DNA of 64,000 nucleotides, taken from the NCBI GenBank assembly GCA_963575745.1, contig CAUYUJ010019898.1, positions 80,678-144,677 on the forward strand, in the 5' to 3' direction. Of this stretch, positions 1,280-46,826 are shown in pieces. How positions within the stretch are numbered: position 1 is the first letter of the stretch; each line of letters starts with the position of its first letter. Source of the DNA: Prorocentrum cordatum (lineage: Eukaryota; Sar; Dinophyceae; Prorocentrales; Prorocentraceae). The position numbers and the translations under genes are program-made. Under the pieces are notes generated by a model. It worked only from the letters and a program-made list of their open reading frames with translations, did no database searches and was not told the origin of the DNA.

Positions 1280-2540
1280 CATCAAGAGCGAGGCCTTCTC
1301 CAGTAGCTGATGCGGGGGTTCGCGCGGAGCCCGACGCGGCAGTCGCAGCCCTCGCACCAAGACATATCCAGGCCCACCGCGCGCGCGACCACGCAGAGCG
1401 CCTCCGCCGCGGGGGCAAAGGCGGGGTCGCGCTCGCGCTGCCCCAGGTTCCCCGCGAAGGTCGCGTCGCCGTCGAAATCGCCGCCGTAGTAACCCCGAAA
1501 ATGCTCGTGGACCAAGAGAGACTCGCACAGCGCATCTTCGAAATGTTCCCACTTGAATTTAATAAGACGTCGAGATGCACCGCGCAGCAGCTCACGGGCA
1601 TGATACGGCGCGTTCTTGAAAGACCCGTTCAGCAAATCCTCTCTCAAATGCCGCACAGAAATCACCTTGTTGAATGCTCGGAACTTCTCCACCCACTGCG
1701 CCCAGCCTGGCGTTCGCTTCACTGCCTCCTCAAGGGCGCTCATCAAGATGCGGCGTGTCCAACGATCCCTCGCCGGCCAAAATCTTGCTCAAGATCGACC
1801 GCACGTCCTGCTCTGCGCCACCCACCGGCACGACAGGGAGGCCCTTCTCGGCGCCCCGGTCACTAATGAATTCACTATCGAGCATCGCCGGGCCCAAAAT
1901 CCACCCTCGCTGTTCTCCAGAGAAGCAGCGCGCGCCAACTCGAACGCCATCTTCGCCGTGGACCCGCGCCCCGCGGCCGCATCGCTGGCTTGCAAACGGC
2001 GCGCAGACAAAGAGAAACCTCCCGGCGGCTCCACCTTGGAGCACCAGTCGACCGCGCCTCTGACGACCGCTCCTCGATCGCTGCGAAGAAATTCCGTCCA
2101 AGCTGCGGCCCGCTGTCCGGGTTCACGCTGCGAAACACCTTGCCATAATTTTGCTTGCCCCATGCCCTCTCCCACAACATTGCCACGCAGTCAAGTTTGA
2201 TATCGTTCATCCGCGCCTGTTCCGATGAAGGCCATGCCATGTTGGCGACGACACTTCCAAGGCAAAGCACCTCCCCGGCGCCTCGCACAATCTCATGCAC
2301 TTAGTCTAGATTTTAGCCTTGTGTATCGGCCTCGCCAACGAGATGTCGAGCATCGGCCCCCAGTGGGCATGCGCGGTGTCGAGCTTCCGGCAAACTTTGC
2401 CTTCGTTCCACGCCTGTTTTTTCAAGTCGGTTTCAAAGTCTCTGTCTAGTGGAGTCGCCGTGCCACCAATTGGAGTCGCCGTTGCAAACAGCCCGGCTGG
2501 GGGGCCTGGCTGCGGCCGCTGCGCTGGGAACTCCACGCTG
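1280..2540 (-). pseudogene. Decayed dinoflagellate hypothetical protein, 3' part
   Basis: Reading the minus strand from 2536 to 1282, normal-looking protein sequence runs through several frames in turn. One frame covers about 2536-2306, a second about 2300-2080, a third about 2175-1790, and the last and longest 1746-1282. The last segment has an acidic and aromatic composition (for example FKWEHFEDALCES and the Gly/Asp-rich GGDFDGDATFAGN) quite unlike the Arg/Pro/Ala text of random GC-rich frames. No domain or function was recognised. Frame changes and stops between segments suggest an old, non-functional copy, although introns could explain some breaks. The region at 4440-5230 on the same strand may be its upstream part. 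Confidence 0.45.
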
Positions 2541-3883
2541 GCCCCATTCGGTCGCTGACGCGGATGGAGAAGAAGAGCCGACCATCAAATCAGCGACGGG
2601 CACTGGGACCTCCGTGGTAAACACTGGCCGCGACGTCCCAAATACCTTTTGCAAGGAAGTCCCGTCGCCCCGTCGCGGGCCGTCAAATCCCACCGGCCCT
2701 CTGGGCGCAGGCGGTTTGACGAGTTCTTGCCCCCCCCCCCTGCACCCTCGTCGGGCCTGGGCGGGGGCGGGGGGGCGGAGCGGTCAGAGCGTCCAAAATG
2801 GACCGAGATTGTCCCGAGAAGATCGTAGACAGCCCAAGATGGCCTGCGACGTACCTCCAAGAGGCTCCAAGAATACCACAATACGGCCCCACTTCCTTCA
2901 TCGCAACGGGCAATCTATTTTTGTTCGATGGGGGGCGAACATTTCCGCCCATTGGATTCCGATGGGGTCGGGAGTCCGCAAGATAGCCCCACGGCGCCCC
3001 CAGATGGCCCCACGGGCGACCCGAGAGCGCCAGAACACGGCCCCAAGAGCGCCCCAAATGGTCACTGGAAGTGGCCCATTCGAAGGAGAGGAAAACGCAA
3101 TGCGCACCAGAGCGCCCCGGGAGTGCCCCAAGAGGGCACTGGAAGTTGTCAATTCGGCCAATTGTTCCTGCCTGGGCGACCCGTCGGCGAAGATCCGCCC
3201 AGGCACAGGCCACTTAATTTTCGGAGGTCGGGGGCCGCGATTCAGATGAGGGTACCCCGAGGGCTTTTGAAGCCGAGGTGACTTCCTGGGGCCCCCCCCC
3301 TCCACCTCCGCCCCAGTGCTGCTCGAAGCGATTCGGCGCCGACGAGAGCAAGCGCGCTTTCGCCGCGCCCCGCGGCGCGCTGCGCCCTGCGATTTTCGCC
3401 ATCGCAACCGTCATCGCCATCGCCATCGCCATCACCATCATCATCAGCATCATCGATCCAAAAGTCGCCACCAAAAATGCCAGGGCGGCACGGTGGCGGG
3501 ACATGCCGCAGGCACCTGGGTCCGCCGCCCCCTGCTTGCAGGGGTGCACGGCGTGCTGGATGAGCTGTCAGGTTTTGGTTTTGGTTCTTTTTCCAAAAGA
3601 ACTTCCCAGTGGGCTCTGGCAGAACCCGCCGGCCACCCGGAATTTCCCCAAACGTGCTCAACGACCGCAAAAAATCCTCCAAGAACGGCCGTTTCGCTCG
3701 GGACATCCTCAAAAAATCGCGAAGATGGCCCAAGATGGCCTCCAAGTCCGCCCGAGATGGTCCAAGACGGCCTCCAAGACGGCCCAAGAGAGTCCAAGAC
3801 GGCCCAAGACGGCCCAAGAGGCCCCCCAGAGGCCTCCCAGACGGCCCAAGAGGCCTCCAAGAGGTCCTCCAGGAGAGTCCGAA

Positions 3884-14504: not shown

Positions 14505-16990
14505 TATACGACCACCCTTCGGGTGACAAGGAGGTTGTGGGGGGGAGAGGGGGGGAACCAACATCTGACTCAATCGATGTCACTATCGATCTCACTCAAC
14601 GGGCCACCACGGACCACCACGGGACATCTCTCGACCTCACTATCGGTCTCACTATCGATCTCACTCAACGGGACACCACGGGACACCACGGGCCACCACA
14701 GGACACCACGGGACACCACGGGACACCTCCCGATCTCACTATCGGTCTCACTATCGATCTCACTATCGGAGAGAGCGCGTTTCACGGGCGCTTGCCTTGG
14801 GAACATTCGGCGGCGAATTTCAAACCGGGGGGTGGGCCCACCCAACACTCGGCGCCATCGATCAAAACCAGGGGGACTCCCCTCCCCCCCCTCCCCTTCC
14901 CGGAGGGGGGGGGATTCAAACCCCCTCCCCCCTCGGCCGCCAGCAGCGCCGACGGCGGGGACGCAGCGACGATGACCAGAGGCAGCCAAAGGGAGGAAGG
15001 GTTCAAACCCCCCCCCTTGGGGCCGGCGCCGGCGCCGGGGCTGGCGGCGGCCAGCAGCGCCGGCGCTGGCGCCGGCGACGGCGGGGACGCAGCGACGATT
15101 ACCACCACTACCACCACCACCACCACTACCACCACCACCGCCGCCTCCACCCACCACCACCACCACCAGCCCACCACTCAGCCACCACCACCACAGCCAC
15201 CACCACAACCACCACCACCACAACTCACCATCACCACCACCACCACCACCACCACCACAAAAAAAACACCACCACTACCACCACCACCACAATCTACCAC
15301 ACCACCACCACCACCGCCACAACCACCACCACCACTACCAGCAGCACAACCCACCACCACCACCACCACAAACCACCACACCACCACCACCACCACCGCC
15401 ACCACCACCACCACCACCACCACCACCACCACCACCTCCACAAACCACCGCCACCCCCACAACCCACAACCTCCACCACCACAAACCACTACCACACCAC
15501 CACCAAACCACCACCACCACCACCACAACTCACCACCACCACCATCACCACCACCACCACAAACCACAACCACACCACCACCAAATCACCGCACCACCAC
15601 CACCACCACCACCCACCACCACAACCACCACCACCACAACAAACCACCACACCACCACCAACACAACCACCACCACCGCCACCACCACCACAACCCACCA
15701 CCACCACCAACACCGTCGTCCTCGTCGACGCTCCCCGCCGCCGCCGCCCGCCGCCGCAGGCGCAGGCGCCGGCCCAGAAAAGGAAATCCTCGAGCCCGCC
15801 GCCGCCGCAGCCGCCGCCGACGCAGGCGCCGGCCCGAGGAAAGAGGAGAGGGAAGGAAGAGGGGAAGGGGGGGGGGGTCGAACCCCCCCCCACCCCCTTC
15901 TGTCACGGGAAGGGGGGGGGCGGGGGTTCGAACCCCCCCCCTCCATCCAGGGAGAGGGGGGGGGGTCCGGTTCCAAACCCAAGGGGAGGGGTCTGGTTCC
16001 AATCCCCCCTCCAAGCGACCGCAGAACGCGCTCTTTCCACTATCGATCTCATTCAACGGGACACCATAAGACACCACGGGACACCACGGGACACTTGTCG
16101 ATCTCACAATCGAACTCACTATCGATCTCACTATCGATCTCACTCAACGGGACACCATGGGACACCACGGGACACCTGTCGATCTCACTATCCATCTCAC
16201 TATCGATCTCACTTTTTGGGACACCCCGGGACACCTGTCGATCTCACTATCGATCTCAGTATCGATCTCACTTTTTGGGACACCACGGGACACCACGGGA
16301 GACCTCGGGGCACCACATCGATCTCAGTATCGATCTCACTATCGATCTCACTTTTTGGGACACCACGGGACAACAAGGGACACTACGGGACACCTGTCTA
16401 TCTCACTATCGATCTCACTTTTTGGGACACCACGGGGCACCACGGGACACCTCGGGGCACCACATCGATCTCACTATCGATCTCACTATCGATCTCACTA
16501 TCGATCTCACTCAACAGGACACCACGGGACACCACGGGACACCACGGGACACCGTGGGAGACCGCGGGGCACCACGAGCCACCGCCGGACGCACGGACGG
16601 ACGAGCGGGCGGGGGAGAATCAGTTGTCTTGACTTCGCCCTAGCAACGGCGGACACCACTGGACACCAAGGGACACCGCGGGACACCGCGAGCCACCGCT
16701 GGACGGGCGGGCGGGGGAGAATAATTTGTCTTGACTTCGCCCTAGCAACGGCGGACACCACGGGGCACCACGGGACACCACTGGACACCGCGGGACACCG
16801 CGAGTCACCGCCAGACGGGCGGGTGGGGGAGAATCATTTGTTTTGACTTCGCTCTAGCAACGGCGGGTTCATTCCTCTCGCGCACCCATGCAGCTTCGCC
16901 TCGCCCGCACGCACGACACGAACAAAACGAAACAATTTCCCGGTTGGGGGTCGCCGTTCCACTGCGACCTCACCCCCGAACCTCCGATTT
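14505..16990 (+). repeat. Compound satellite module, copy I
   Basis: An ordered composite follows. It starts with a head (TATACGACCACCCTTCGGGT) and a satellite mixing a 12-mer (CTATCGATCTCA) with a 10-mer (GGGACACCAC). Next come a GAGAGCGCGTTTCACGGGCG segment at about 14771, GGCGCC-rich DNA with G/C tracts, and a (CCA)n block at 15101-15714. Then come GCCGCC-rich DNA, TTCGAA-centred G/C palindromes, more 12-mer/10-mer satellite at 16030-16560, and three units of about 105 bp at 16600-16860 with GAGAATCA and TTGACTTCGC. It closes with a unique tail at 16861-16990. The same parts recur at 57.6-63.4 kb. All long frames across it are artefacts. Confidence 0.85.
15101..15714 (+). repeat. (CCA)n / (ACC)n microsatellite I
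   Basis: Roughly 615 bp of CCA triplets with ACA and CAA interruptions. Frames read poly-Thr, poly-His or poly-Pro on the plus strand and Gly/Val/Trp-rich text on the minus strand, none of which is a gene. The flanks match those of the larger (CCA)n block at 58711-60153. Confidence 0.97.
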
Positions 16991-17688: not shown

Positions 17689-17725
17689 TCCGTATCCATT
17701 TTGGCTCAAGCCATTTTGGCTCAAG
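17689..17725 (+). other. Tandem spliced-leader relic at the 5' end of LINE A
   Basis: Positions 17689-17710 match the 22-nt dinoflagellate spliced leader, with one change at position 7 (CCGTAT in place of CCGTAG). It is followed without a gap by a second, 5'-truncated leader CCATTTTGGCTCAAG at 17711-17725. The truncation starts exactly after the internal AG of the leader. This pattern is expected when a retroposed copy that already carried a leader is transcribed and trans-spliced again using that internal AG as acceptor. Confidence 0.93.
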
Positions 17726-17826
17726 TGTTAGCTGCGCCAGCTTTCCTTGAGTTGATCTGTAAGCCTACAACAGAGCTTCTGCCCTCTCGCCGCACCTGCT
17801 TCGCCCAGACTCTGCGGGCTGAGTCG

Positions 17827-19634
17827 ATGACGCAATGGTCGAGGCAAGGAGGGCAGGGAGGCTCGTCCTCTGCGCAGCAGTCTGCGGAGTGGAGGAAGGA
17901 TCCGAGTGGCCAGTGGCACTACGTCGGCCAGCGAGGCGGTGGGCAAAAGAACGCCTCGCGGCTGTGGGTGTGCAGTGGCTGCCAGAGCAGCAGTTGGACC
18001 AAGAATGCATGCAGCACCTGCGGCATGCGCAAGACGTTTGCGGAGGCAGCGAAGGCGGCATTGCCAATGGGTCAGAACAATGGTGCACCGCCTGCGCCGT
18101 CGCCGCCCCAGAACCAGAACCCGATCAGCAAGCAGTTGGCCGAGGTGGCTGCCAAGCTCCAGCGAGCTACAGCGGGTACTTCGACCACGGCTGGGCCGCC
18201 TGCAGCGACGCCGCCAGCGTCGCCTGCGCAGGCCCCGCCCCTTGCGCCGACGGCGACGGACCAGCCTCCAGCGCCGGCGGCGAAGGGCCAGCTGCCGACC
18301 GCCCCCACGAGCCCGCAGCTCCGGGCCTCGGTCACGCAGATCGAGAAGGCCTCGGCGGCGCTGGAGGGCCAGGACGGGGCCGTGCGCGCGCCGCTGCTGG
18401 CGCAGCTCGAGGAGAAGAAGCTCCTGGGCGAGCTCAACCCCAAGCCAGTGGGGAAGAGGCTCGATGGAGCTCGAGCCGCCCTGGAAGGGGCGACCAAACG
18501 CCAGCAGGCCGCCGAAGAGAGCGTCGAGCTGGCGCTCGCGGCGCAGAAGGCGGCAGCGGCGGAGGTGTCGCAGCTGCGCACCGAGGTGGCACAGCTGGAG
18601 CAGGAGTGCGCTGCTGGGCGTGTTGCGAACGAGCGGCTCCTCCAGCCCCAACATCCAGCAGCTGGAGGCCGTCCTCAAGTCCACAGTGGGGGAGCTCCAG
18701 GCCTGCTCTGCTGTGAGCGAGACGGCGGTCGCCGAGGCCACGCAGCAATCGCGGGAGCTCCCGGAGAAGTTCCGGCCGACCCTGGACCTGGCCCACCAGG
18801 TGGAGAGCACTCACGCCGCGCCCGCTCGCCGCCTCCAGGGCAAGCAGGAGCCCCAGGCGGGAACGGCACATCCGGTCGTCCCGCCGCCCGTGCGCAGGCT
18901 GGTGGGCAAACAGAAGGCGCTCACCCGGTTTGGCTTCGTGCGGAAGTCGGGCGAGCTCAAGGCGAAGACCACCACCTCAGCCTCGGGGTTTCCAGTCAAA
19001 ACCAAGAGCGACGCGTCGGCGTGACTCTTGCCACCGCCAATGTGAACACACTTCTACCCTGGCAAGAGAAGTGTGCGTATGCGCAGATTGCCAACGCATG
19101 GGTGTTGAGCAAAGTGCAGATTTTGGAAGATCAGTTCGTCGCCGCGGGCGTGGACGTGATCGCGATGCAGCAGGGCCGTGCCCCCGCGTCCGTCAGCAAG
19201 GAGGGCCACTCGTACACGCTGATGTGCGCGGCTGCCTTCGAGGATGGGTCTTGCGGCGTCCAGATCTGGGCCCGCCATGGCCTGTTCATCAAGACTTGGG
19301 AGGCCGTATCGGCTCGTCTCATGTTCGCTGTGGTGTCCAAGAAAGGCATCGACTTTGGTATTGTCTCTGCTCATGGCCCTCATCTTCTTGCTCCTGAAGC
19401 AGAACGGGCTGCATGGTGGGACTCTCTTGGCACCCAGGTGACGACCCTCAGGCAGACTTACGCGATTCCCTGGTATGTGTGTGCTGACACCAACGGCCGT
19501 GTAGGATCGGCATCGTCTCCCATGATTGGGCCCACGGTTCCTAGCCGTGAAAATGAAAATGGCAGTCGGGTCCGCGAGTTTGCCGAGCAGCAGCAGATGA
19601 TGGTCGCCAATACGTGGGGCCCTGAAGCTGGCCA
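17827..19634 (+). pseudogene. LINE A 5' coding part: zinc finger, coiled coil, endonuclease N-terminal half
   Basis: The first ATG after the leader (17827) opens a frame of about 600 codons that reaches the LINE B insertion. Residues about 30-75 hold a Trp-rich zinc finger of the C-x2-C...C-x2-C type (WVCSGCQSSSW then CSTCGMRK). Residues about 80-390 are Ala/Pro/Glu/Gln-rich with long predicted helices, like the RNA-binding ORF1 region of other LINEs. From about residue 398 the frame matches the N-terminal two thirds of an exonuclease-endonuclease-phosphatase fold (LATANVNTL, ADTNGRVG). The frame then runs into LINE B. The remainder resumes at 26146 after the duplicated target site, and the joined reading GPEAGHTWTSS is continuous. 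Confidence 0.85.
19619..19634 (+). repeat. LINE B target-site duplication, left copy
   Basis: GCCCTGAAGCTGGCCA abuts the T8 run (19635-19642), which is LINE B's poly(A) tail on the minus strand. It is identical to 26146-26161. Confidence 0.95.
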
Positions 19635-19811
19635 TTTTTTTTCTATGCTCGGGCCATACGCACGCGGCTCTGGCCAGTCACCCTCCAGGTGGGGTGGCCC
19701 GACGGTGCCTGGGCGTGCCAGTGGCGGAGACCCAGGGCAGAGACCGTCGGGCGGGTGGCCCCTCACAAGCGCGCAGCACCGCCGAGGTGGCGGTGGGCCT
19801 TGGACGGGGGC

Positions 19812-22800
19812 CTAGTCCGACGATCCCGAGTCGTCCTCGCCGAAACCCACAGGAGGGATGAGTTCCCCATCCTCCTCTTGGCGCCTGCTGGAAAGCTGCT
19901 GGCGCCCTCGACCAGCCTCGAACCTCTGTGGGCGAGGCACCGAGCTTGGGTGCGGCTGACTCGGGAGTGGCATCGCTGCGCGCGCTGCTGCAAGTTCACG
20001 CTGCGCCCGCTGCTGCCTTTGAATTTCTGCGGTGTTGTACCGCTCGGACTCTGAAGCAAAATCTGAAAACCTTGGATGCTTGCCAGCCAGAAGACGATTT
20101 CTGATGTTCGCACGTCCGCCACTCTTGGGAGGGCGTCCAGGACAAGTGGCTGGCAAGCCTCTGAAAGCATACTGGGCATAGCGCCCACAGACTAAACAAA
20201 AGACAACTGGCACGGCAAAATGCGCTATTGCCATCTGGTGGCTGGCGTGGATGCCTTCAAGGCCGCGCCTGAATGCGCTGGCCAGAGGCTGGCATGCTTG
20301 TCTCTCTCGTGCGACGGCTGCCTTATAAGATCGGGCGTACGTAAAACATGCTCTGCACCTGTACGGTATCGGCCCCTGAAGAACCTCCCAGTCGTGCACG
20401 ACGATGGTGGCCTGAACCTTACAGGGCAGAGCGGCTCTCTCGCACTTGTGCCTATTGCGCTGGCATAGGGCGAGAACTCTGGGCGCATATAAACCAATCG
20501 CTCGAGCGGCCTCTATTTTGCGCTGCCACTCCTGCAGCGCTGTCGGGTTGAAACTTGGGTGGCAGTCCATTGCCGCCTTCGCCATCTTGTCCGCTGCTGT
20601 GTTGATCTCGGCAGCGAGTCTGGCCTCACCAGCCAATAAGTTCACATTCTGATGGCTCTTGACCTTAGAGGCCGTCTCGAGGAGGTGTCTGCTGTCCCGC
20701 GCAAGCGCTAGCTTGTGCAGGCCTGAGTACTTTAGCTTACTGCTGAGACGTGTCGGCAGTGGCCTAGCGTGCTGATCAAGGACCGCTTTGCAGTCCACCC
20801 AGGCCTTGGAAGGTTTGGTGAGGGCCTCCTGGAGAACCAGGAAGCCCATGTGCTCCCCAGCCTGAGAAGTCTGGGGAAGGTTGGCTGCAACAGCGCCATA
20901 AAAGGAGGCCTCTGGGGCCCCGTCGGTACTGTAAGCCACTACCGAAAACGTCGCTCTGTCTAACTCCGCAATGCCTGTCTTGGTGCACGACCCGTCGGTT
21001 CCCGTGAGCCCCCCAAAGTACGGTACCGTGTCTGGCTGTCCGTCGTGTCTGACAAATCGAACAATGGGCTTCTCCCTGGGCAGCGGAAAATCATCATGCT
21101 GCTCCCCTGGATGCTCGAAAAGACCGAAGCAGTACAGGGGGCTGTTCTCTGGCGCCTCCAGCGCGGCCTGCAGAACGTCTGGCGGCAGCAGCTCTGTCCT
21201 GAGGGCGACTACCTCTGGATGCTGACAAGAGAAAAGACGGTGGTGTATGGTGTCCCCGAAGGCTTTGCAGAGCGGGCATTCATTAGGCACATCATAGCCT
21301 AGATTAGCGAGTATTTCCTCGGTCCACCAACCCTGGACCACAAGGGTTTGGAGGATAGCCTTAAACCTGGGGGGTAACTTCTTGCTTTTGGGGGAAAGCA
21401 GGGAACGGACAATGTCAAAACACACTCGCTTCATGGGGGTTGGGCTGGGTATGCTCTTAGCGGCAATGGTTTCCCATCTCCTCTGGCATCCTTGGTGAAG
21501 CAAGTCGGAAAGCAGGCTCGGCGAGGTGTCAGTGAGCCTGACCGTCCTGCCAAAGTGGTCCTGCAGCGTAAACGCGGATGTGAAACTCCAGCCAATACGT
21601 TGAAGCGCGTGAGCTGCCGCGCTGAGTGGTCCTCGCACGGCGTTATAACTCAAATGTCCTGCTGGCTGCACGTGGTTATAAATCTCCTTGAGCTCGAGCA
21701 GTCCTATGGTCCCTGGGGTCACATACTTGCCGAGCGTAGTGTTCCACACTTCCTGGGCCCACCTGAGGACGGGCCCGAGGGCCCAGCGGTCGGCCCTGGA
21801 CCCCGTGAGGGCGAAGGCCGCGCTTCTGGATTTCCTGGAGGAACACGGAGTGATCTGTGCAATCTCAAGAGATTGCAGCCTATACAAGGACTTGTTGCTG
21901 AGCCCGTCGACGGCTGCCCCGAAGGCCCCAGCGGGAAGGAGCCCAGTGGTAACAATCTTGCGACATCGTTGACCCGCGGTCGCGGTAAGCTTACGCAGGC
22001 GTTGCCCTCTGACCGTCGCAGTCCTGAGCCTGACCTTGCGCTTAGCAGCAGCGCCATTGCACCCGAAGGACTTGCCCGCCGTAAAATCACAACCTAAGTT
22101 GGTGGCGACCGCTTGGAGCTTGCCCCCAGAGGTCCCAAGGGCAGAGGTGAGAAGCCTGGCTAACGACACCGACGACGCAACGACGGCTCCTTTGTGAACC
22201 GCAATCCTGGCTTCTAAGTCAACCTCGATGAGTCGGGCAAGCTCCTTGGCGGCACTGACAACACGCTTGAGCACCCTGACCGTGGTGCCGTGACAGGCGA
22301 TGGTCAGGTCATCCAAATAGAAATCGAAATAGACGGCCGAGTGCAGCGACGTGATTCGCAGGAAGGCGTCAAAACAATAAATCCTGACATAAAGTATGCA
22401 GAAAGAACAGCCCGCCACTATGCCGTTGGCGGCCGCAATAGGCTGGGCCACACAGCGCTTCCACGCTATGTGCCTCCAAGAGCCGTACCCTGCGAGATGA
22501 TATGCTAGCAGAGTCTCAGGAAAACCTAAAGCAAGCGCTCGGGCCCGCAATTTGCTTCTCTTGAAGCGCTCGAAGAAAGCCTCCATATCCCAGAGGACGC
22601 CCGCGGAAGCCCCACCTCCTGAGACGGCCCCTTCAGCTCTGAGACTCCGCCGCCATACCACGTCGACTGGTGATCTGCCGGCACCGCAGGCAAACCAAGA
22701 GTGATCGTGCTTGGCAATCCAGTCCTGGGCGAAATGGAGGCGCAGCTTGCCTGTGATTCTGTACATCATGGGAAAGATGCCGATGGGCCTGTAGCCGCCT

Positions 22801-23808
22801 GTGACTTTGCGGAGGAGGGCCACGAGGACCCACTGGAGCTGCCCAGGAAGCTCCCCCAGCACCTCAGAGACGTAGATGAGTTTGGCGAAGGCCTCTAGGG
22901 CCTCGTCCGTTAACATACTGAGATGCCTCATGTGGAACCCGTCGAGAGAGACGGCGGAGGACTTGGGGTAACTCTTGGAGAGGTCCCTGAGAGCTTCCAC
23001 TGAGGGGATCCCGATGGGCTCGTGGAGGACGTTGTCCCTGTGGAGGGGCTCGGCCGAGGGCTCCCAGAATTTCCCGAACTTGGCCTGGTAGGTGTCCAGG
23101 GTACTCTGAATGGAGGCGGTGAGCTTACCCTCAATGACCACAGTGTCGGGCTCCCATTTGGTGCGCTCCTTAATGAACTTGTGTGCAGCCTTGGCCCCTT
23201 TGTCGAGGGCCTTGTCGACCCAATCCTTCCAGGAGCTGGCGTTAGCTGACCGCACATCTGAAATGAGCTTCTTTGCGCATGCGTCAGCTCTGGCCTTGAA
23301 CGAGAGCAGCTGCGCGACTGTGGCAGCTATCTTGCTGCAACAAAAAGCTTCAGCCTCGAAGTCTGCGTGCAAGGCCGTGATAAACTGCTGGATATCTCTC
23401 AGGAGCACGCGCGTGCACTCGTTCTGCATCACGTGCTGTGGCCTGGCGCGCAAAACTCTGGAAATAAGCTCGAAAACTGCTGGCCTAGATGCTCTGCCTA
23501 TAACCTTCCCAGCATACCTTTCCTCCTCATCTTCCAAAAAGCAGGCGAGGCGGTGCATGCGTGTGGCGATCCAGCTCGGCGCCGTAGGGAGGAGGCCGTA
23601 CTGCTTGTGAGCTCTATCCTTCTTTGTTATGGATCTGAGTGTTGGCTGTGGGGCTCTTGCTCTCAAGCCAGTAGACTTGCGCTCACGAGTCCTTGTGTTG
23701 GTCCGCTGCGCGAGCTCGAGCTCGGCGGCGTTGGCCCAGTGCGCGTAGGCCGAGGCGAAGTTGAGACGCAACACAACCTTGTGACGGTTACCTAAAGCGG
23801 AGATAAGC
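19812..23808 (-). CDS. LINE B reverse transcriptase and RNase H region
   Basis: The frame reads from about 23808 to the stop at 19812 (about 1,330 codons). The N-terminal linker leads into the RT fingers and palm. Motif A is LWDMEAFFERF at about 22570-22600, and the catalytic loop is FYLDDLTI at about 22305-22330, so both metal-binding Asp of YxDD are present. An RNase H domain follows, with TGTDGSCT (about 20990), AGEHMGFLVLQEAL (about 20850), WVDCKAVLD (about 20790) and TAADKMAKAA (about 20600). The C-terminus has Cys pairs (CRACF, CLVCG) typical of dinoflagellate LINEs. The first apparent start is a GTG at 23774. The coding sense clearly continues upstream through a short A-run, where a one-base loss separates it from the endonuclease frame. 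Confidence 0.92.
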
Positions 23809-24800
23809 TTTTGATATGATCTAGAACTTTATCCCTAGAGACGGTGCTGTGATGCACTATATCCTCACCCTCCTCATCCTGGTCGAATGAGGAGGGGAGG
23901 GGGGGTATGGTAGGGAATTGAAGGACCTTGACCTCTCCAAAATCTGGTGGCAGATCCAGCATAACGGGGAAGTGCGGCCTAGCATCCCAGTCGAAATCGA
24001 CGTCGATGCCCCGCACTGCGTTGGCGAGCTGCTGCTCGACAATGAACATGTCTATAACGGAACTGCTGGCCGTGCAGGTGCCCATCGTGCATACTGGCGC
24101 GAAGAGCTGACCCTTGATATAATTGCAGAACTCCGAATGCTCAAGCTGGTCTTGAGTGACATTGAAGTCTCCTGCTATGATGTACTGCAGCCCTGAAACC
24201 TTAACCAGGTCGGCTACGGCCTCGAGGATGGCGAGATTGTCAGGCGAGAGGCCCTGACTCACGTGCCCATACAGAGATAGACAGAGGATGCCCGAGGTCT
24301 GGGGGAACTCCACAACGACTCCCAAGACGCGTTGTGGCACCAAAATGCCTCCAGGGGGCCCAACGGGTTCCTCGAGAGTGTAGCACCCAAGATCTTCGGC
24401 CACGAAGATGGCGACCCCAGCTGACGAGCCTATATCCCCTAAACCATTCGTCGAGGGGGAAAAAGCGGCAGTGGCAACCGACGGGGCCCAAAAACTCTTC
24501 CAGCCGTGCCTAGAGGCCCAGTCGGAGGCCTCGGCAATGCTTAAATCAGAGACTAGGTGCACCTCCTGAGCAAACAAAACTTTGGTGGGTCCCCACGCAA
24601 GCTCGAGGAGGCGCTTCTTGATGGAGCCCCAAGAGGACCCATTGAAAGTCTCAAAACGGGTGCACTGAGGAGAGGAGGGAGGAGAAGAAAAGTTGGCCTT
24701 CCCAGCGCTGGCACACGCTGGTGAGGCCGTCGGCTCAGATGACTGGCAGTCACGACTCTCCGTCGAAGCTGTCGTCGCTGTCGGCGCGCTGCCGTTACCC
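23792..24800 (-). CDS. LINE B APE-type endonuclease domain
   Basis: In a frame offset from the flanking segments, this encodes an exonuclease-endonuclease-phosphatase fold. Motifs in order are TFNGSSWGSIKKRLLEL, LFAQEVHLVS (metal-binding Glu, about 24560), SLYGHVSQ, AGDFNVTQDQ (about 24160), SSVIDMFIV (about 24050) and the terminal DARPHFPVML (about 23965, catalytic Asp-His region). The enzyme would nick target DNA to prime reverse transcription. There is no ATG before the domain in this frame, so it must be reached by frameshifting from the ORF1 frame, or the offset is a mutation or sequencing error. The stop at 23792 follows an AAAA run, where a one-base shift restores the RT frame. Confidence 0.9.
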
Positions 24801-25958
24801 GTACGGGCGGTGGGCCCGACGGCTGCCAGTCCCCTTGCTCGATGGTGCGCCCAGCTGCCGCGCGGCCGCGGCCTGCTGGTCCTGGTATGCAGCTCTGGCC
24901 TTCTGGATGGCTTCGAGCTCCTTCTTCGGCACGTGCTTGGCAAGGGACTCCATCTCAGCTTTGAAGAACTCGGAATCGAAAATCGGTGCGTCCGTGGTCG
25001 ATGGCGCTGGCGAGGGCGGTGGCGCCGCCTTCTCGGGCAATGTCCCCACCATGCTGGCCATGTCATTGATGAATTGGAGGATGTCTGCATTGTCTGCGAA
25101 CTTCTTCTTGGCCTCCTCGATCTTGGCCTTGGACGTCTTGGTGAACTCAGCGAGCGATTCAGGAACCTCGTCTGGTGCCGTGTCAGCCCAGACAGACTTG
25201 GCGTCCTGCTCCTCGCGCTGCTGGTCGTCCATGGCCTGCTCGAGACGTGTCTTCTGCTCGTCCATGGACTGGATGTTGGCGTCGAGCTGCTGCTGCAGCT
25301 CCTGCTGGGTCTTCTCCAGCTCTGAGATCTGGTTCTTGATCTTCTCGACCTTCTCGGCGGCTCGCTGCACACGTGTGTGGCAGCGCGCCATGCGCTGCGC
25401 TGGCGGCAGGCTAGCAGCCTGCGCTGCGCGCGCCTCCACCAGGTCGGCTCTGGCCTGCTGCAGCTTGGCGGCCACGTCGGGCATGACGCTGGCGTCCAGC
25501 TGCTGGTAGGTGCTGACGAGAAGCTCGAGTTGCTCGATCTTCTTGTCCCTGTCGTTGGTGTCGGCCACCTCGGACGCGGGCGCGGCTGCGTCCTTGCCCT
25601 TGCCCGTGCCACGCGAGCCCTTCCCGCGGCCGGGCGCGGCGCCTGCGGGGGGGCTGCCAGCTGCTGGCGGCAGGGGGGCGCCAGCGGCCGCTGCCAGGGT
25701 GGAGACGCGCTTGGCGATGGCGTCGAGCTGCTGCTTGGAGAGCCCAGCAGCACCACCTGCGCTGCCCGCACCCTTGCCGCCGCCTGCGTTCTTGCCAACG
25801 CCCTTGCGGCGACTGGCTCCACGCTGCGGCTGATCACCCTTGTAGTAGTAAAGCCCGCAAATGTGACACCACAGCTTGCCGCTAGCCAAAGGAGTCCAAG
25901 AGCGCGGGCCACACTTCTTACACTGAACCCATGCAGCTGGCCCTGCGGCCTTCGCCAT
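24795..25958 (-). CDS. LINE B ORF1-like protein (zinc finger, coiled coil)
   Basis: ATG at 25958, stop at 24795, 387 codons. Residues about 8-35 form a zinc-binding motif (CKKCG and, 14 residues later, CHICG). An Ala/Gly/Pro-rich linker follows. A long Glu/Gln/Lys-rich helical region at about residues 150-300 is predicted to form coiled coil. Proteins of this layout in LINEs bind the element RNA and form the ribonucleoprotein. The upstream in-frame sequence to 26162 lacks an ATG and crosses the leader, so the start at 25958 is preferred. The stop overlaps the endonuclease frame, which lies one base forward. Confidence 0.85.
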   Translation of the reverse strand: MAKAAGPAAWVQCKKCGPRSWTPLASGKLWCHICGLYYYKGDQPQRGASRRKGVGKNAGGGKGAGSAGGAAGLSKQQLDAIAKRVSTLAAAAGAPLPPAAGSPPAGAAPGRGKGSRGTGKGKDAAAPASEVADTNDRDKKIEQLELLVSTYQQLDASVMPDVAAKLQQARADLVEARAAQAASLPPAQRMARCHTRVQRAAEKVEKIKNQISELEKTQQELQQQLDANIQSMDEQKTRLEQAMDDQQREEQDAKSVWADTAPDEVPESLAEFTKTSKAKIEEAKKKFADNADILQFINDMASMVGTLPEKAAPPPSPAPSTTDAPIFDSEFFKAEMESLAKHVPKKELEAIQKARAAYQDQQAAAARQLGAPSSKGTGSRRAHRPYG

Positions 25959-26122
25959 TGCTGAGGACGTGCCGTGCTGGCCAACTGCTTTTGAGCGAGA
26001 ATGATGAGTACGCGAAGGCACCGTCCGGTGCACGAACAAAGACTCACAGGCTGACCCCAGGGACGCGGGCTGGGCCAGACCTGGAGCGTGCGTTGGCCCT
26101 GCGCCACCTCGAGAGATGGCAA

Positions 26123-26144
26123 CTTGAACCAAAATGGCTACGGA
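26123..26144 (-). other. Spliced leader at the 5' end of LINE B
   Basis: Read on the minus strand, these 22 bases match the dinoflagellate spliced leader (DCCGTAGCC..., ending TTTTGGTTCAAG) with a single C-to-T change at position 17. One extra base (G in sense) separates it from the 16-bp target duplication. The leader therefore marks the exact 5' end of the inserted cDNA. Confidence 0.95.
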
Positions 26145-26145
26145 C

Positions 26146-26161
26146 GCCCTGAAGCTGGCCA
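26146..26161 (+). repeat. LINE B target-site duplication, right copy
   Basis: Identical to 19619-19634. On the plus strand it restores the LINE A endonuclease frame, which resumes immediately as HTWTSSYGTQARIDF. Confidence 0.95.
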
Positions 26162-28583
26162 CACGTGGACGTCGTCATATGGCACGCAGGCTCGTATCGA
26201 CTTCATCTTTGTCCCTGTCGAACACTTCGACGACATCGATTACTGCCGGCCTAACTACACCATCGACTTGACCTTGACCTCGTGGGCGGACCACAACGTG
26301 GTAGAGCTGGCGACTACTGTGCGAGCGACCTCGTCTGGGTTACAGTCTGCTGCCCCCTTCCGCCTCAACAAGCTGAACCTCTCCCAGCAGCACCGCGTGG
26401 ACCGCTTCCAGCGGCTGATGTGGTCTTTCCCGCATGTGAACGACACCGTGCAAATTGACGACCACCTTGAGATGTTCAACGCATATGTGCGCTGGGCTGC
26501 TCGCTGTGCTTTTGGCGACCCAAAGAGGCAGCCTCGGAAGAAGTGGATCAGTGCTCAAGTTTTGAAACTACTTCAACATGTTGCTCCTCTGCGTCGAGCT
26601 CGTCATGCTTGCCTGGTGGAAGAACGCAGGGCCTTCCAGTGCATGTGCCTGGCTGCGTGGCGGTCGGTCGTCTGCCCTGGATTTCGAGCCCAGCACGGTC
26701 TGTTCAGAGAACGTTCCGGAGAGCGTCTTCCGGAACGTTCTGGTGCGCACTTTCTGGGCCCGCCTCGCAATTGGCACTACTACGGCGCCGCTGTGGATCA
26801 TGATCTGGTTGTACGTCGATATCGGTGGCAAGGAGCGCTGGCTCATGCCACGATCTTCCGTCTGCAGTATTGTGTGAAGCCGGTATTGGAACGAGATCGT
26901 GCAGCTTTCCTGGACTCCATGGCGATGGCTGCGTCAACCCCCCTTGGGGAACACGATCCTCGTCAGGCACATGCGGTTGTCCGAGCCCTGAGTGGCAGTA
27001 ACCATCGAGTGACTCCGTGCATGTTCCTCAAGGATGGCACAGTTGTATCGGACCCCCCAGCTGCACGCGGCGATGGCTTGAACACTTCTCGGAGGTCCCA
27101 GGCGGTGTGCCAACTGAGGATGCTGCCCTTCGTGAACCTGCCCGCCCGCCTCGTCAAGCCCCCTCGGGGCTGGACGTAGGCCCCGAGGCGACGCGCCTAG
27201 CGTTCAAGGCGCTGGGCTGGAACAAGGGCGTGGGCTACGACCTGATCCCTGCCGAGCTCTTGCAGGTTGGAGGCGATGCGCTGGCGTGTAAGTTTGCGAC
27301 GGTCAACCTACGTATTCTCGGCAATGGATCCTTGCCCAAACAGTGGCGCGGAGGCCGATTGCAAGAGGTATACAAGAACAAAGGTGATCCCCGAGACCCA
27401 GACTGCAGTCGTGGCACCCTCTTGGCAGACCACCCAGGCAAAGCCTTGGCTGGAATGTTGAAGGCGCACCTGGACCCCACGTACGTCGACCGCATGCCGC
27501 TGACACAGTTCGGAGCAGTGCCCAAACGTGGTACCGATGCGGCGACGCTGCTGATTCGTGCTGCCCTGGAGGCCGCTCATCTGAAAAAACCTTTCGGTGA
27601 TAGTCTTGTTCGTTGACCTTGTCAAGGCATTCGATCGGGTGATTCGAGAACTGGTCTTTGGCTGGGGCCCCGATCCACCTGCTGATCATGCTGCGCAGGT
27701 TGCACACCTGAAGGCCTTGGGTGTAGCTGACGCCGCGGTGGACTGGATCCTCCGCTACCTGCGTGAGCGGGGCCACCTCTTTGCCCAGTGGCAGGTCGAC
27801 CCAGGAGTGGCCGACCTGTGCAAGTCCCTGCACGCCGGCGCTTGGTTCGGGATGTCGGGGGTTGAGTCTCGTGTCGTGAATCGTACGGGCGGGCGGCAAG
27901 GATGTAAGCTAGGAGCTTTAACATTTAATGCTGTGTACTCGATTGCGCTTGACCTGGTGTCGTGGACGTTAGAGCGGGCTGATATCACGCTTCGTCTCCC
28001 TGTGCCAGAGTCTCCCCTTTTGGGCTCCTCCAGAGGTCTCGAGGTATGAGCCCGGACTCACCTCTGTAGTTGACGCTGCGTTTGTAGACGACGAGTGTTT
28101 CGTGTTGATGACTGCGTCCGGGGCTCTCCTGGACAAAGCTATTGACGCTTTGCTGGGCCAGCCTTTCGGGGTCTTTGAAAACCCTCCACCTCTCGAAAAA
28201 CTGTAAGTTTGGAAAAACAGAGGCTCTTTTAAGACATCGTGGATACCAGTCTGCGCAGCTGCGCGAGGCCCGTCGGTGTCCCGACGGAAAGTTGCGTCTC
28301 CAGGTCCCTGGTCGCCCAGGATTTGCGATCGACGTAGTAGATAGCTACGTACGCTTAGGCACGCATGCTTGTGTCGACGGCTCGTGCTTTAAGAACGCTT
28401 CCCATCGGCGCTCGAGTGCGATGGCCGCGTATGCTCCCTTGTCGTCTAAGATCTTTGGGGCCGAGAGCGTGCCTATACCAGACAAGCTCTGTTTCATGAC
28501 CACCCTTGTCATGTCGAGGCTGCTTGTTTCGGTGCTTGTAACTGTGCCGGCACCGAACGCTATAAAAAAATGAATGGAATGTA
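26146..28583 (+). pseudogene. LINE A endonuclease C-terminus and reverse transcriptase
   Basis: The endonuclease ends with ARIDFIFVPVEHFDD and the catalytic Asp-His of WADHNVV (26290). After a spacer, RT sequence follows in shifting frames. One segment has KGVGYDLIPAELLQ and GTDAATLLIRAALEAA (27220-27590). Motif A is FVDLVKAFDRV (27605-27640), motif B is GGRQGCKLG (27888-27915), and the catalytic loop FVDDECFVL lies at about 28078-28105. At least four frame changes are needed. The segment ends in an A7 run at 28564-28570, where one base appears lost, just before the copia insertion. The downstream remainder is at 36911-37697. Confidence 0.85.
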
Positions 28584-29070: not shown

Positions 29071-30606
29071 TCAGGCACAAAAAAAACACTGGCCCTCGTC
29101 CGGGCCTGGCAAATTCCTCGGGATGTGCAGCGAACCCGAGACTAAGCGACAGAACTGACCTGTCAAATCCATCGTCTTAGTGAGAACGTCGGCCAACATA
29201 TAAGCCGTGGGGACCCACCGCATCGGCACATCTGCCACGTTCATACTCTCGCGGGGGTCCACGGCAGCCTCCAGCTGCATGGCCTCATGCAGCCAAGCCA
29301 GATCCATGATCAGGCGCTTCTCCTGCGGGAGCTTACCGGCGTCCCGCTGGAGGGTGTCATACAGCGACTTGCAATCCGTCACACACGCGATCGGGAGCAT
29401 ACGAATGTTGGCTATCATCTCACGGTTGGTCACATCTAGGTCGGCATACATCATCTCGAGTATCACAGCGCGCACAAACTCTGCTGAGTCAAACGCCTCG
29501 GTACAACTCTGAGTCTCGGCAGCGAAGGTACTCCTAGCCACGCGCGGCAGCGCGTGGCTTCTCCAATCCACCAGGATCGCCTTTCCCGTGCGTCCTTCAG
29601 CAACTGCACGCTCGCACAGGTAGACCAGGTACCCCGCCTGCGAGTGGGCCTTCCCCCCTTGAGCGATCCGACGCAGGGCCTCATCCTCGGCGAGCGCGTT
29701 TCCCCATGCAGCGTCGTGGTAGACTATCAGGCACCACGGGGACTCCACGTCCAGCTTGGGGATGTGAAACTTCTCGCTGGCCGAGCTCTGCAGCACTCCG
29801 ATGGCCTTGTTGACGTCCAGCAGGTCTTGGATGCAGGGGGCATTCTGCTTGCGCTGGGCCATAGATACCGTGCACGACAGGTCCAGTCTCGTCTCTCGAG
29901 CTGGCCATCCCAAACTGCCGACTACACTGCGATTGTCCGCGATCTCGCGGGCATTACACTCCAGGCTCGGATCGCGCTTGCGGGCCTTGTCGATCTCGAT
30001 CGGCTCGAGCCTGCCCTCGACGAAGGTCGACTGGTCCAGCAGGAAACCTCCTTCTGGGTCCGCCTGCAGCAGCTTCCCGCAGAACACCACAGGCACGTGA
30101 CGCCACTCGCCGAAGTTGAAGAGACCTCGAACTCCCTGACGTAGGGCCTGCGACTTCGTGGCTACGAGGAGATCGTCAGCATGTACGCAGACCAAGATAC
30201 ACGGCCTGCCGTCCTCGTTGAAGCCGCGGAACACCGTCGGGTCGAGCCGGGACTGCATCATGAGGATGGGCTTGACATCCTCGTCGTTCAAGTCCGCCTC
30301 GACCAGGCCCCGACGCAGACGTCGCCACCACAGCCGCGGCGCATCCGCAAGCCCGAAGATGCCCTTCTTGACCTTCAGGAGGCACCGAGGGTCCATGTTC
30401 GGCAGGCCCTCCTTGGGCTGAGACATGTAGAGCTCCTCGGCGCGCCCGTGCTCCTCGCCCTGCATGAAGGCACACTCGACGTCGCCGGCCACGATATCGA
30501 AATCGTACGCCGCCGCCACTGCCAGGAAGGTGAGCACCGAATGCCTCGACACGGTCGGTGCGTCGGTCCTGAGCCATCGTGAGGTCCGCGTCGTTGTGGC
30601 CACCAC
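29071..30606 (-). pseudogene. Copia reverse transcriptase core and RNase H
   Basis: About 510 codons after a frame change from the integrase frame. The RT palm has DVECAFMQGE (about 30480), the copia-type KKGIFGLADAPRLWW, and a catalytic loop CVHADDLLVA (about 30175), with both Asp present. RNase H follows, with YHDAAWGN (about 29730), RSTFAAETQS (about 29530), CVTDCKSLYD (about 29375) and the terminal DVLTKTMDL. The frame stays open to the stop at 29071. The domains look catalytically complete, but they are disconnected from the upstream frame. Confidence 0.92.
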
Positions 30607-33600
30607 AGCACAGCCGAGCCTTCGGCTTGGGCGGCGCGTCCTTGACTCCAGCGTTCTTGTTCCGGTAGAGGAACCTCGACGTCAAGATGCGGCTCTGGTG
30701 GACTCGCTCACGACACTTCTGACTTTCCTCGACTGAGAGCGGCTCGACGGCGTCGTAATTCTCCCACTGCTTCCACTGCAACTCGGCCGCCTCGCGATAG
30801 AGGGGGCGGTCGCTGGCTGGAATCATGTCCCATGGCATCTCCTTTTCCAGCGCTCGACGTTGCAGCCTAGTCGTGTTCCAGCTCCGCTTCGCGATCAGGC
30901 CGAAACTGAAATTTGCGAAGTGAACGGGTTGTTCTGGATGATCGCCTGGGTGCTGAAGCGGTCCGACGGGGAACGGACGGAACACCTGGCTCTGCCGGGC
31001 TTGTAAAGCCGCCCGACGCTTCTTGAACTCCTCCTTCGCGTATGGAGCCCCTTGTTCGGGTAGAGCTGGCTGAGAGGGCGTCGCTGTCGACGCGGGAGGC
31101 TCCGCGCGGGTCGATGACGCGGGAACCGATGACGCCGCTGCCTCCTGCCGCTTGCGGGGCGGCTCGTCATCCCGGCGCTCGGCAGCGTCAGCCGGGCGCG
31201 TGTCCCTCTCGATCTCCTCGATCTCCAGCTCCAACTCTCTCGCTTGCTCCTCGAGGGTGTCCCCGAGGCCCTGGCCTTCTCTCCGCTGTAGAGGTTGGGC
31301 CTTCTCTTCCGCTTCACGCGGTCCCCGCCCTCGGTCGTCGTCGTACTCTGGCTGGTCCTCCTTCTCGACCTGGCGGATGAGTTCGTTCAGCTCCTCGATG
31401 TTGGGATCGTCGCCCTGACCGGGCCACCAGATCTCCTCATCCTCAGCGGGTCGGAGCTGCTCGTGAGAAACTTGCACTGCCCCAGCACCATGCGAGAGCC
31501 AAAAGTTGGACGCTCCCGCTGGGCCGATGACGACGGCTGGGCCTCGCCACTCGTGGAGCTTCGCCCCCTTGCGCAGCCGCCAGTAGAACGCCAGGTCCCC
31601 GTTCTGGTAGTTGATGCGTGCGACCCTCGGCTTCCGCAAGAGTGCTCGACGGAGCGCTTGACTATTCTGCAGCTCCACGAAGGCCGTCCGCGCAGCCGTG
31701 CGGATAGCCATCCTCCTGGCGAGCTCCGTGGACACGCGATGCATGCTGTGCTCTGCACTCTGGCCAGGCCGATCGATCAGGTCGGCAGACGTGGTAGGCG
31801 AGCATCCGTACACCCATTGCGACGGTGAAAAGCCGCAGACCCGACGCATGTCGCTCTTGGCCTGGCAGGTCTCCCAGACGGCGGTCACAAGGTCACCGCG
31901 GCTCGTGACTGACTTGTGCTCGACGACGCGGTTGACCATGAGCTTGAGCCAGCCGCCATGCCGCTCAATGCGGCCGTTCTGCCACTGCGCCTGGCCCGCC
32001 ACGGCCTTGACGCGGACCCCCATCATGTCCATGGCCTCCTGAAACTCGGTGTAGAACATGCCGCCTGGGTCGAGCCTGACCACGCTAGGCGGTCCAGCCG
32101 GCCACAGCTCTCGGCAGACCTTAGCCACGGTGGCTGGCTTCCTGTTCCTCAAGTAGCGTGCGACGTGGTACGTCGTGGAGGCCTCGACGAGCGACAGGAA
32201 CAGGTAGGGCTTCCCGCGCGCGTTCCGAAGGTAGAGACCGTCGACGCCCAGCTCGTCATTGAAGCCGCCGACGGGCGACAGGCGAGAGACTCGATGAGAT
32301 CCCGCAGCAGGCTTGGTCCTGTTGCACGCAGCACAGCGCAGGTGCTCGTCGCCGCGGACGAGGGCATCGTCCGCGCCTTTGAGCCTCAGTTTCCTGGCCA
32401 GGTCGTCGTTCGAGGGATGCCCGAGGTTCTGGTGAAGGCGTCGAAGGTGAGATCGAACCTCCAGCGGCAGAATGCCAGCCTTCTCCCCGAACGAGATCGC
32501 TCTGGAGCCCATGGGCTCCTCCTCGGGTGCCTCGTCGCCCTCGTCGTCGACGTCCGCCGCCATGGCCTGGTAGCTCTTGTTGCGCACCTCCTCGAACGCA
32601 TCGACGATGCGCCGACTGAAGTCCTTGGTGTAGACCTGGCTCCAGGAGATGCCCTTACTGCCATAGCCCTTCAGCTCCGCGTGGTCGTGGTCCTCTGTGC
32701 ACCGCAAGCCGCAGTGCTTCTCGGAAGGTGCGTGAGTCGCCAATATCCTCGTAGGCTTCTTGACTGCCTCCCCGGTCTGAGGGCAGGTGAGGCCGTGCGC
32801 GCGCGCATCAGTCTGGAACTCGACCACGCCTGGCAGTTGTCTGAGCCTCTTCCAAGGGCCCTCGTTCCAAGACTGCCCCAGCCACGGGCGCTCCAGCACA
32901 GCCATGCGCCCGCCCTCGTACTGCAGCCCGAAGAGCTTCTCGACTAACTTCAGCGTCGGCAGCTCCTTCACCCGCGCCCGCCGCAGGCGCTGCTTGTCCC
33001 CCTTGAACACGAGGTCCTGCATGTGGCTCCAAATCCTGCATGTCTGCTCGAGCACCAGGCAGTCTGGCTTCTCGCGATCCACGAAGTCGATCAGCAGCTG
33101 CTGAACATTCGGCTTCTTGAGATCGTCACCGCGCTCGATGTCCCAGGGCTGGCCGACACGAAAACCTCGACGGGCGGCCTCGCGCGACGCCGCGGCCTTG
33201 CCACCCCAGATCTTGGCGCCGTCCTCGTCGACCGCGACGCGGACCTCCTCGGCGGCGGGCTCCCCCGCGACCTTGGCGAAGCTGGCAAGGTTGAGGCCAG
33301 CCGACTCGCCGATGGTCGCCGCGAGGCACATAGCTGGCAGCGCCCACGAAGTCAGAGCGCCACGAAGCCCGCTAATCACGCGCTTCTTCATCCCGCGGCG
33401 CAGGGGCCGCTTCACCTGACCAGTTGGGAACCGAGATCGAGGTGGTTCATCAGCTCCTTGTCCTGGTCGGTCTCGGCCGCGCTCGACTCGGTCTCCGCCT
33501 CGCTCAGCTCGGACTCGTCGCTCTCCTCGTCGACCCTCGCGAGGTCCTGGCCCGGGTCCCAGTCCACCTCCGCCGCCGGGACTGGCGTCGTCACTGCTGT

Positions 33601-46740: not shown

Positions 46741-46826
<86 letters not shown>
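46741..46826 (+). repeat. Uninterrupted A86 homopolymer
   Basis: 86 consecutive A bases with no substitution. It could be the tail of a retroposed transcript on the plus strand, but no spliced leader or target duplication was found around it. Confidence 0.97.

Follow-up and report, generated by a model that had tools for sequence, protein, structure and literature searches.

A dinoflagellate LINE headed by the spliced leader probably moves as its own processed mRNA

A 64,000-nucleotide stretch of the genome of the dinoflagellate Prorocentrum cordatum (contig CAUYUJ010019898.1, positions 80,678 to 144,677; hereafter the window, GC content 61 %) contains a long interspersed nuclear element (LINE), here termed LINE-A, that begins with the spliced leader (SL), the sequence added in trans to nuclear mRNA. 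LINE-A is very probably a LINE of the endonuclease type that moves by way of its own processed mRNA, trans-spliced and polyadenylated, and has a 5' end that treadmills instead of being inherited as DNA. A preliminary description of the window had proposed that the element inserted a cDNA of such an mRNA, and this proposal is supported by the leader at the insertion boundary and by the target duplications and A-tails found across copies.

As described earlier, LINE-A lies on the minus strand between two identical 16-bp duplications (GCCCTGAAGCTGGCCA), the only two places in the window that match this sequence with at most 2 mismatches (Table 1). An A8 tail stands at one end of the insert, and at the other end, one base inside the duplication, stands the leader (TCCGTAGCCATTTTGGTTCAAG), which matches the SL at 21 of 22 positions. 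The insert is nested within a second LINE, LINE-B, which runs on the plus strand. When the flanks are joined without LINE-A, the endonuclease-like frame of LINE-B closes with no base missing (...NTWGPEAG|HTWTSSYGTQARIDFIFVP..., the bar marking the junction here and below; frame read by eye). Because removal of the insert restores this frame, the leader came with LINE-A and not from the empty target, where the preliminary description had left open that it might already be present.

Copies were sought in the window's own genome (4.13-Gb assembly, 21,875 contigs) and are referred to by locus numbers. The first set, the best 24 of 179 candidates and thus favouring long and similar copies, gave 25 matching places, of which 21 are complete or almost complete in length, the full-length ones being 89–100 % identical to the window copy; 21 loci (L040-L060) reach the 5' end, L064 is the same locus as L054, and L061 and L062 are interrupted by assembly gaps. 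The second set was obtained with the 5' untranslated region (5'UTR) and the start of open reading frame 1 (ORF1) as the query, the leader being excluded. From the best 40 of 52 candidates, 20 places outside the first set were fetched and 17 were kept, L110 (contig end), L102 (flank as in L041) and L119 (flank as in L117) being dropped. A complete leader heads 36 of the 38 independent 5' ends, and that of L045 is broken by N at an assembly gap. The 5' end of L121 (G000:C14664:41050-41380) joins what appears by eye to be PIF1-helicase-like coding sequence, as in a truncated copy or a fusion. Over the 36 complete leaders, the first base is T in 33, G in two and A in one, like the D known at this position, and position 7 is G in all. 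Copies extending upstream of the leader with shared sequence, a prospect raised earlier, were not found: BLAST of the flanks of 22 first-set loci (about 60 to 1500 bp upstream) revealed no shared in-register sequence, only scattered repeats at unequal distances and the pair L054/L064, which is one locus. By eye, the nearest 30–45 bp agree only in L041/L102 and L117/L119, the same or duplicated loci.

The preliminary description had also suggested counting the leader-headed copies that adjoin a target duplication, and a clear duplication of at least 12 bp is present at the SL in 27 of the 32 copies read at both ends. The first set contributes 18 of 20 copies with complete leaders; in the second, 3' stretches were obtained for all 16 leader-headed copies except L115, which is too close to a contig end; an A-tail is visible in 12 of the 15, and a clear duplication is present in nine of these 12. 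The duplications are mostly 12–20 bp long, their length saying little for L052, L060, L107, L109 and L118 (among the 27), which are set in CCT repeats, and the A-tails range from 7 to 101 nt. In eight copies, one extra base separates the duplication from the leader, namely G in L040, L050, L053, L060, L109, L114 and L118 and T in L046, and the base directly preceding the leader is G in 21 of the 36 copies. In other LINEs, an extra 5' base has been linked to copying of the cap, and the extra G of LINE-A may perhaps be a copied cap as well.

The 5' end varies between copies. According to a hand count of the 36 complete ends, 15 carry a single leader joined at AAG|TTGCC, two carry a single leader joined further downstream (L047 and L048), 16 carry two units and three (L041, L060 and L118) carry three. 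The hand count is preferred to a scripted one (18/16/2), which halted at the second unit of L060, where there is a deletion. Complete relics are 15 nt long and begin at CCATT, right behind the AG of TCCGTAG inside the leader. Because at least one relic is present in 19 of the 36 copies, at least these 19 descend from a parent that was itself leader-headed and fertile. Every complete outer unit ends at the last AAG of the leader, without SL RNA intron sequence, and is followed by TTGCC, by the CCATT of a relic or, with the exception of L048, by the body just past an AG. These junctions were in all likelihood made by trans-splicing. The junction GAG|GTGGCG is used by both L047 and L053, which sit apart on a tree of 21 LINE-A bodies (5' end excluded, L045 counted as a double), and CCAG|GACTGG is the downstream junction of L120. 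On this tree, the leader state changes 10 times, compared with a possible minimum of 3 and a mean of 8.9 for shuffled states, and therefore does not cluster; sister copies differ in how many units they carry, in the downstream junction and in the first base of the leader. The boundary leader, the duplications, the A-tails, the unit number that varies among close relatives and the AG junctions (except that of L048) can be read directly in the sequence. Since leader states change between close relatives without clustering, the 5' end of LINE-A appears to be remade in each cycle, by replacement, by accretion of 15 nt or by trimming to downstream acceptors, which bears out, in finer detail, the earlier suggestion that a leader would replace the element's own 5' end each time.

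In the mechanism proposed here, a transcript starting outside LINE-A would receive the 22-nt leader by trans-splicing and would be polyadenylated. At a nicked target, its reverse transcription would then run as far as the cap and sometimes into it, leaving, in order, one target duplication, (G), the SL, the body, the A-tail and the other target duplication. Three kinds of acceptor could serve in the next round. Use of the AG that ends the old leader would replace the leader with no net change; use of the AG within the old leader (TCCGTAG|CCATT) would lengthen the 5' end by a 15-nt relic; and use of an AG further along the 5'UTR would trim the element. Since an acceptor at position 7 of the old leader, or at its last base, requires a branch point upstream, for which 22 nt is too short, transcription probably begins in flanking DNA, either by read-through or from an internal promoter firing upstream.

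LINE-A shows a target preference. At least 18 of the 20 nt upstream of the leader are pyrimidines in 13 of the 36 copies and at least 18 are purines in none, while 7.4 % of random stretches of the first-set upstream flanks reach 90 % pyrimidine (binomial 9e-7, treating the copies as independent). The pyrimidine-rich sense strand upstream may reflect an endonuclease preference only, or it may aid the next trans-splicing. A further step, offered tentatively and judged somewhat less probable than its opposite, is that such LINEs inherit neither a promoter nor a 5' end: transcription of the target DNA would open each cycle, SL RNA would provide the cap and the first 22 nt, the 5' end would treadmill by 15-nt growth and trimming, and pyrimidine targeting would be an adaptation. 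If this were true, a pyrimidine-rich target would install the tract that makes the AG of the old leader a good trans-splice acceptor in the next round.

Several observations weigh against the proposal that LINE-A moves as its own processed mRNA with a 5' end rebuilt in each cycle. The copies scored were the best-matching ones of each search (24 of 179 and 40 of 52 candidates). L121 has no leader, the one such case among the 38 5' ends, and L063 starts at element position 2431, likewise without a leader. No duplication was found for L041, L116 and L120, and those of L042 (CT repeat) and L112 (ACT repeat) are ambiguous. In L046, the nearest relative of L048, the site corresponding to the L048 junction reads ACG instead of AG. 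Both the endonuclease match and the RVT_1 match of LINE-A fall under the Pfam cut-offs. Inner relic units are no more mutated than outer leaders, though they are necessarily older and the inverse was expected (3/300 versus 6/756 bases changed, p 0.72, the gapped unit of L060 being excluded); either the cycles are fast relative to mutation or the relics are kept by selection. A further weak point is the near-constant T at position 7 of the LINE-B leader (T7).

These points have to be considered together with the alternative explanations. LINE-A mRNA might be a passenger that another reverse transcriptase (RT), belonging to a second LINE or to Ty1/copia machinery, inserts in the way of host retrogenes. 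The same relics occur in host genes, a review of 2018 favoured Ty1/copia machinery in the text available (PMC6050394), and the window itself contains a copia-type RT (29071-30681, minus strand). This is nevertheless improbable in view of the LINE-like duplications, the A-tails and the long open frames of the window copy, which match RT, zf-RVT and endonuclease families; the element's own proteins probably perform the insertion. That the mobile RNA is a processed mRNA is independent of which machinery inserts it.

Even less probable is that the leader, instead of being newly added in each cycle, is inherited as element DNA, for instance as a 5' end or promoter captured earlier. The leader motif TTT(G) has been proposed as a promoter (PMC6050394, in the part consulted), the LINE-B T7 leader looks as though inherited, and inner and outer LINE-A units are equally intact. 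On the other hand, the 15-nt relic starts exactly behind the leader-internal AG, and a transcription start within the leader would preclude accretion at TAG|CC. For LINE-A, inheritance as DNA was rejected, as sister copies differ in unit number, junction and first base, with no clustering on the tree. There is hardly any likelihood that the RT jumped from LINE RNA to SL RNA, which would make a trans-spliced mRNA unnecessary. LINE-1 is known to jump to small RNAs, as in U6-L1 chimeras, but a jump has no reason to respect the leader end and the acceptor sites at which, L048 excepted, the outer units of LINE-A stop and the sequence resumes, and this explanation was therefore rejected. Also rejected were a chance leader match (3e-7 matches of at least 21/22 are expected in the window), an assembly artefact (the copies are spread over many contigs, and most have a duplication of their own) and a leader already present in the empty site, in view of the closing LINE-B frame.

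The window copy of LINE-A keeps long open frames. In its RT frame, zf-RVT scores 28.5 bits, over the Pfam cut-off of 27.5, and RVT_1 scores 26.5 bits (E 6.1e-6), under the cut-off of 29.6; the endonuclease motifs were recognized by eye, the Exo_endo_phos score being below its cut-off. ORF1 overlaps the endonuclease frame, which in turn overlaps the RT frame, and this implies frame changes, re-initiation or small indels. A protein search with the LINE-A RT found no relative among 7993 scored candidates, a comparison with PDB sequences found nothing, no related loci were found in IMG/VR, and there is no DNA methyltransferase among the Pfam hits of the LINE-A frames searched. The two ends of LINE-A are unlike each other (leader versus A-tail), so no long terminal repeats (LTRs) are seen, no LTR-specific search having been made.

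Table 1. Coordinates of LINE-A, LINE-B and their parts in the window
Feature	Positions	Strand	Basis
LINE-A insert, 6511 bp	19635..26145	-	Enclosed by target duplications
Target duplication, A-tail side	19619..19634	.	Identical 16-mer
Target duplication, leader side	26146..26161	.	Identical 16-mer
A8 tail (reads T8 on the plus strand)	19635..19642	-	Sequence
Spliced leader, 21/22 match	26123..26144	-	Sequence
Extra G separating duplication and leader	26145..26145	-	Same extra G in six more copies
5'UTR behind the leader	25959..26122	-	Sequence
AG serving as downstream junction GAG|GTGGCG (L047; ancestry of L053)	26108..26109	-	Copy comparison
AG serving as downstream junction CCAG|GACTGG (subfamily of L120)	26081..26082	-	Copy comparison
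ORF1 (387 aa; by eye, two CxxC pairs close to the N-terminus; no trusted family)	24795..25958	-	ORF and Pfam
Endonuclease-like region	23798..24715	-	Exo_endo_phos E 2.8e-4, 21.1 bits, cut-off 24.5
RT frame	19812..23828	-	RVT_1 and zf-RVT matches
Outer leader of LINE-B, T at position 7	17689..17710	+	Sequence
15-nt leader relic of LINE-B	17711..17725	+	Sequence
LINE-B part preceding LINE-A	17726..19618	+	Sequence and copies
LINE-B part beyond LINE-A, to the last base alignable to L085-L087; stops break the frame	26146..28549	+	Alignment

The window copy of LINE-B also starts with the SL and a 15-nt relic, which the preliminary description did not mention. The identity of LINE-B as a LINE is based on motifs recognized by eye and on its ends; Pfam searches with its RT and endonuclease pieces, either singly or joined with X, found nothing relevant. 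From the best 40 of 96 candidates, 20 5' stretches were fetched (L083 and L084 from short matches), and a leader is present in 17, partial in L068 and L069 and absent from L080. Position 7 is T in 15 of these 17 leaders and in the window copy, C in L077 and G in L079. The T7 change destroys the AG used for accretion, and the T7 leader may be an SL RNA variant, an inherited leader or a misreading; its sequence was not found in the literature text searched (mostly non-subscription papers). Three LINE-B 3' ends, about 99 % identical to one another, were read, and none has an A-tail. The duplication is about 12 bp in L073/L085, with 5 further bases before the leader, and about 14 bp in L075/L086; the third copy read at both ends lies inside a TA repeat, and a search for a duplication around the window copy found none. 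Most copies (L065-L084; 17664-17688 in the window) start shortly after GGCGGA(TATA), a motif that is often preceded by a hairpin-like stretch and followed by a TA run; by eye, GGCGGA lies about 25 nt upstream of most leaders, and further when the TA run is long. The motif suggests either that LINE-B prefers such targets or that a TATA-like element stands at the distance of a promoter.

Short sites consisting of a leader plus a relic were also matched in the LINE-B search; 11 of these places were fetched, and three of them, each resembling a second one, were extended. RVT_1 and Exo_endo_phos are over the Pfam cut-offs in L099 and L100, and the RT of L101, which has no Pfam hit, is 26.5 % identical to that of LINE-A. 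With LINE-B counted, at least five LINE families have leader-headed copies, and L088/L099 carries four leader units. T7 leaders head L088-L092 and G7 leaders head L093-L098, in a set that is biased, the query having carried T7. In L096 (G000:C2048:90400-91080), a leader-plus-relic unit and the sequence following it occur twice, 389 bp apart, as tandem copies of one leader-headed unit.

Other features were met in the window and in further searches. At 45842-45821 on the minus strand, a degenerate match that agrees with the leader at 18/22 positions (by chance, the window should contain 0.003 of these) adjoins a GGA-rich repeat and precedes an unidentified minus-strand stretch, and a run of 86 A at 46741-46826 (plus strand) is possibly the tail of another retrocopy. 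The copia-type RT (RVT_2, E 4.4e-11) lies beside a 1456-aa open frame without a Pfam hit, and the 16-mer TCACTATCGATCTCAC forms a dispersed repeat array on the plus strand, with 23 occurrences across 14579-16510 and 62295-62976. An AT-rich IMG/VR contig (L001, IMGVR_UViG_3300045993_001077, 1936-2913, minus strand) contains the dinoflagellate leader twice, both times as an exact match. The copy at 2766-2746 stands at the head of a 254-aa ORF with a GC content of about 50 %, versus 24–26 % upstream, and an A6 stands near 1785; this ORF resembles a dinoflagellate mRNA that was retroposed into the genome of a large virus. When the leader was sought in prokaryote genomes, two contigs from metagenome-assembled genomes matched, and the ORFs listed for them include no LINE.

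The presence of leader relics on dinoflagellate genes is established (PMC12014239, PMC7245778 and PMC8045281, in the sections available), and leaders beside endogenous viral genes have been interpreted as retroposition (PMC10235124, in the passages available). The 2018 review that thought Ty1/copia likelier regarded the responsible element as unknown (PMC6050394, available text). No report of a LINE headed by the spliced leader was found in the literature searched, which covered few subscription papers. LINE-A represents a dinoflagellate RT system whose copied template bears a leader and an A-tail, that is, resembles a processed mRNA, and a machinery of this kind is a candidate for the origin of the many host retrogenes that bear leaders. 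Where LINEs persist with no fixed 5' end, the question of how a promoter is kept can also be addressed directly through related copies, each LINE-A copy logging part of its recent cycles in 15-nt steps.

Mammalian LINE-1 resembles LINE-A in target-primed insertion, an A-tail, target duplications and an occasional extra G at the 5' junction, but has an inherited internal promoter in its 5'UTR and an RNA that is not trans-spliced to a leader. Among dinoflagellates, retrogenes with relics of the dinoflagellate leader (DinoSL) were reportedly described by Slamovits and Keeling in 2008. As in LINE-A, a leader-bearing mRNA is reverse transcribed into the genome and tandem 15-nt relics (CCATTTTGGCTCAAG) count the rounds (PMC12014239, PMC6050394 and PMC7245778, as far as their available text goes). 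In these retrogenes, however, a host mRNA is copied by a machinery that was called unknown, whereas in LINE-A the copied RNA is that of the element itself, and duplications and an A-tail are visible in most copies read at both ends. The trypanosomatid L1Tc/ingi elements with Pr77 are likewise LINEs in a host that trans-splices its mRNA, but the accessible part of PMC8190864 describes a fixed, shared 77-nt 5' promoter sequence (in L1Tc and NARTc also a ribozyme) and unspliced transcripts. LINE-A is leader-bearing and has no fixed 5' end of that kind, Pr77 itself not having been searched for. SymbioLINE-Dnmt is, like LINE-A, a dinoflagellate LINE with an RT and target duplications, and its endonuclease has a possible counterpart in the endonuclease-like region of LINE-A; in the portion of PMC5890265 consulted, it has conserved 5' and 3' UTRs, a methyltransferase ORF and no poly(A) tail. 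LINE-A differs from it in its leader as a variable 5' end, in its A-tail and in having no methyltransferase hit, whereas LINE-B, at the three 3' ends read, shares the missing A-tail with SymbioLINE-Dnmt.

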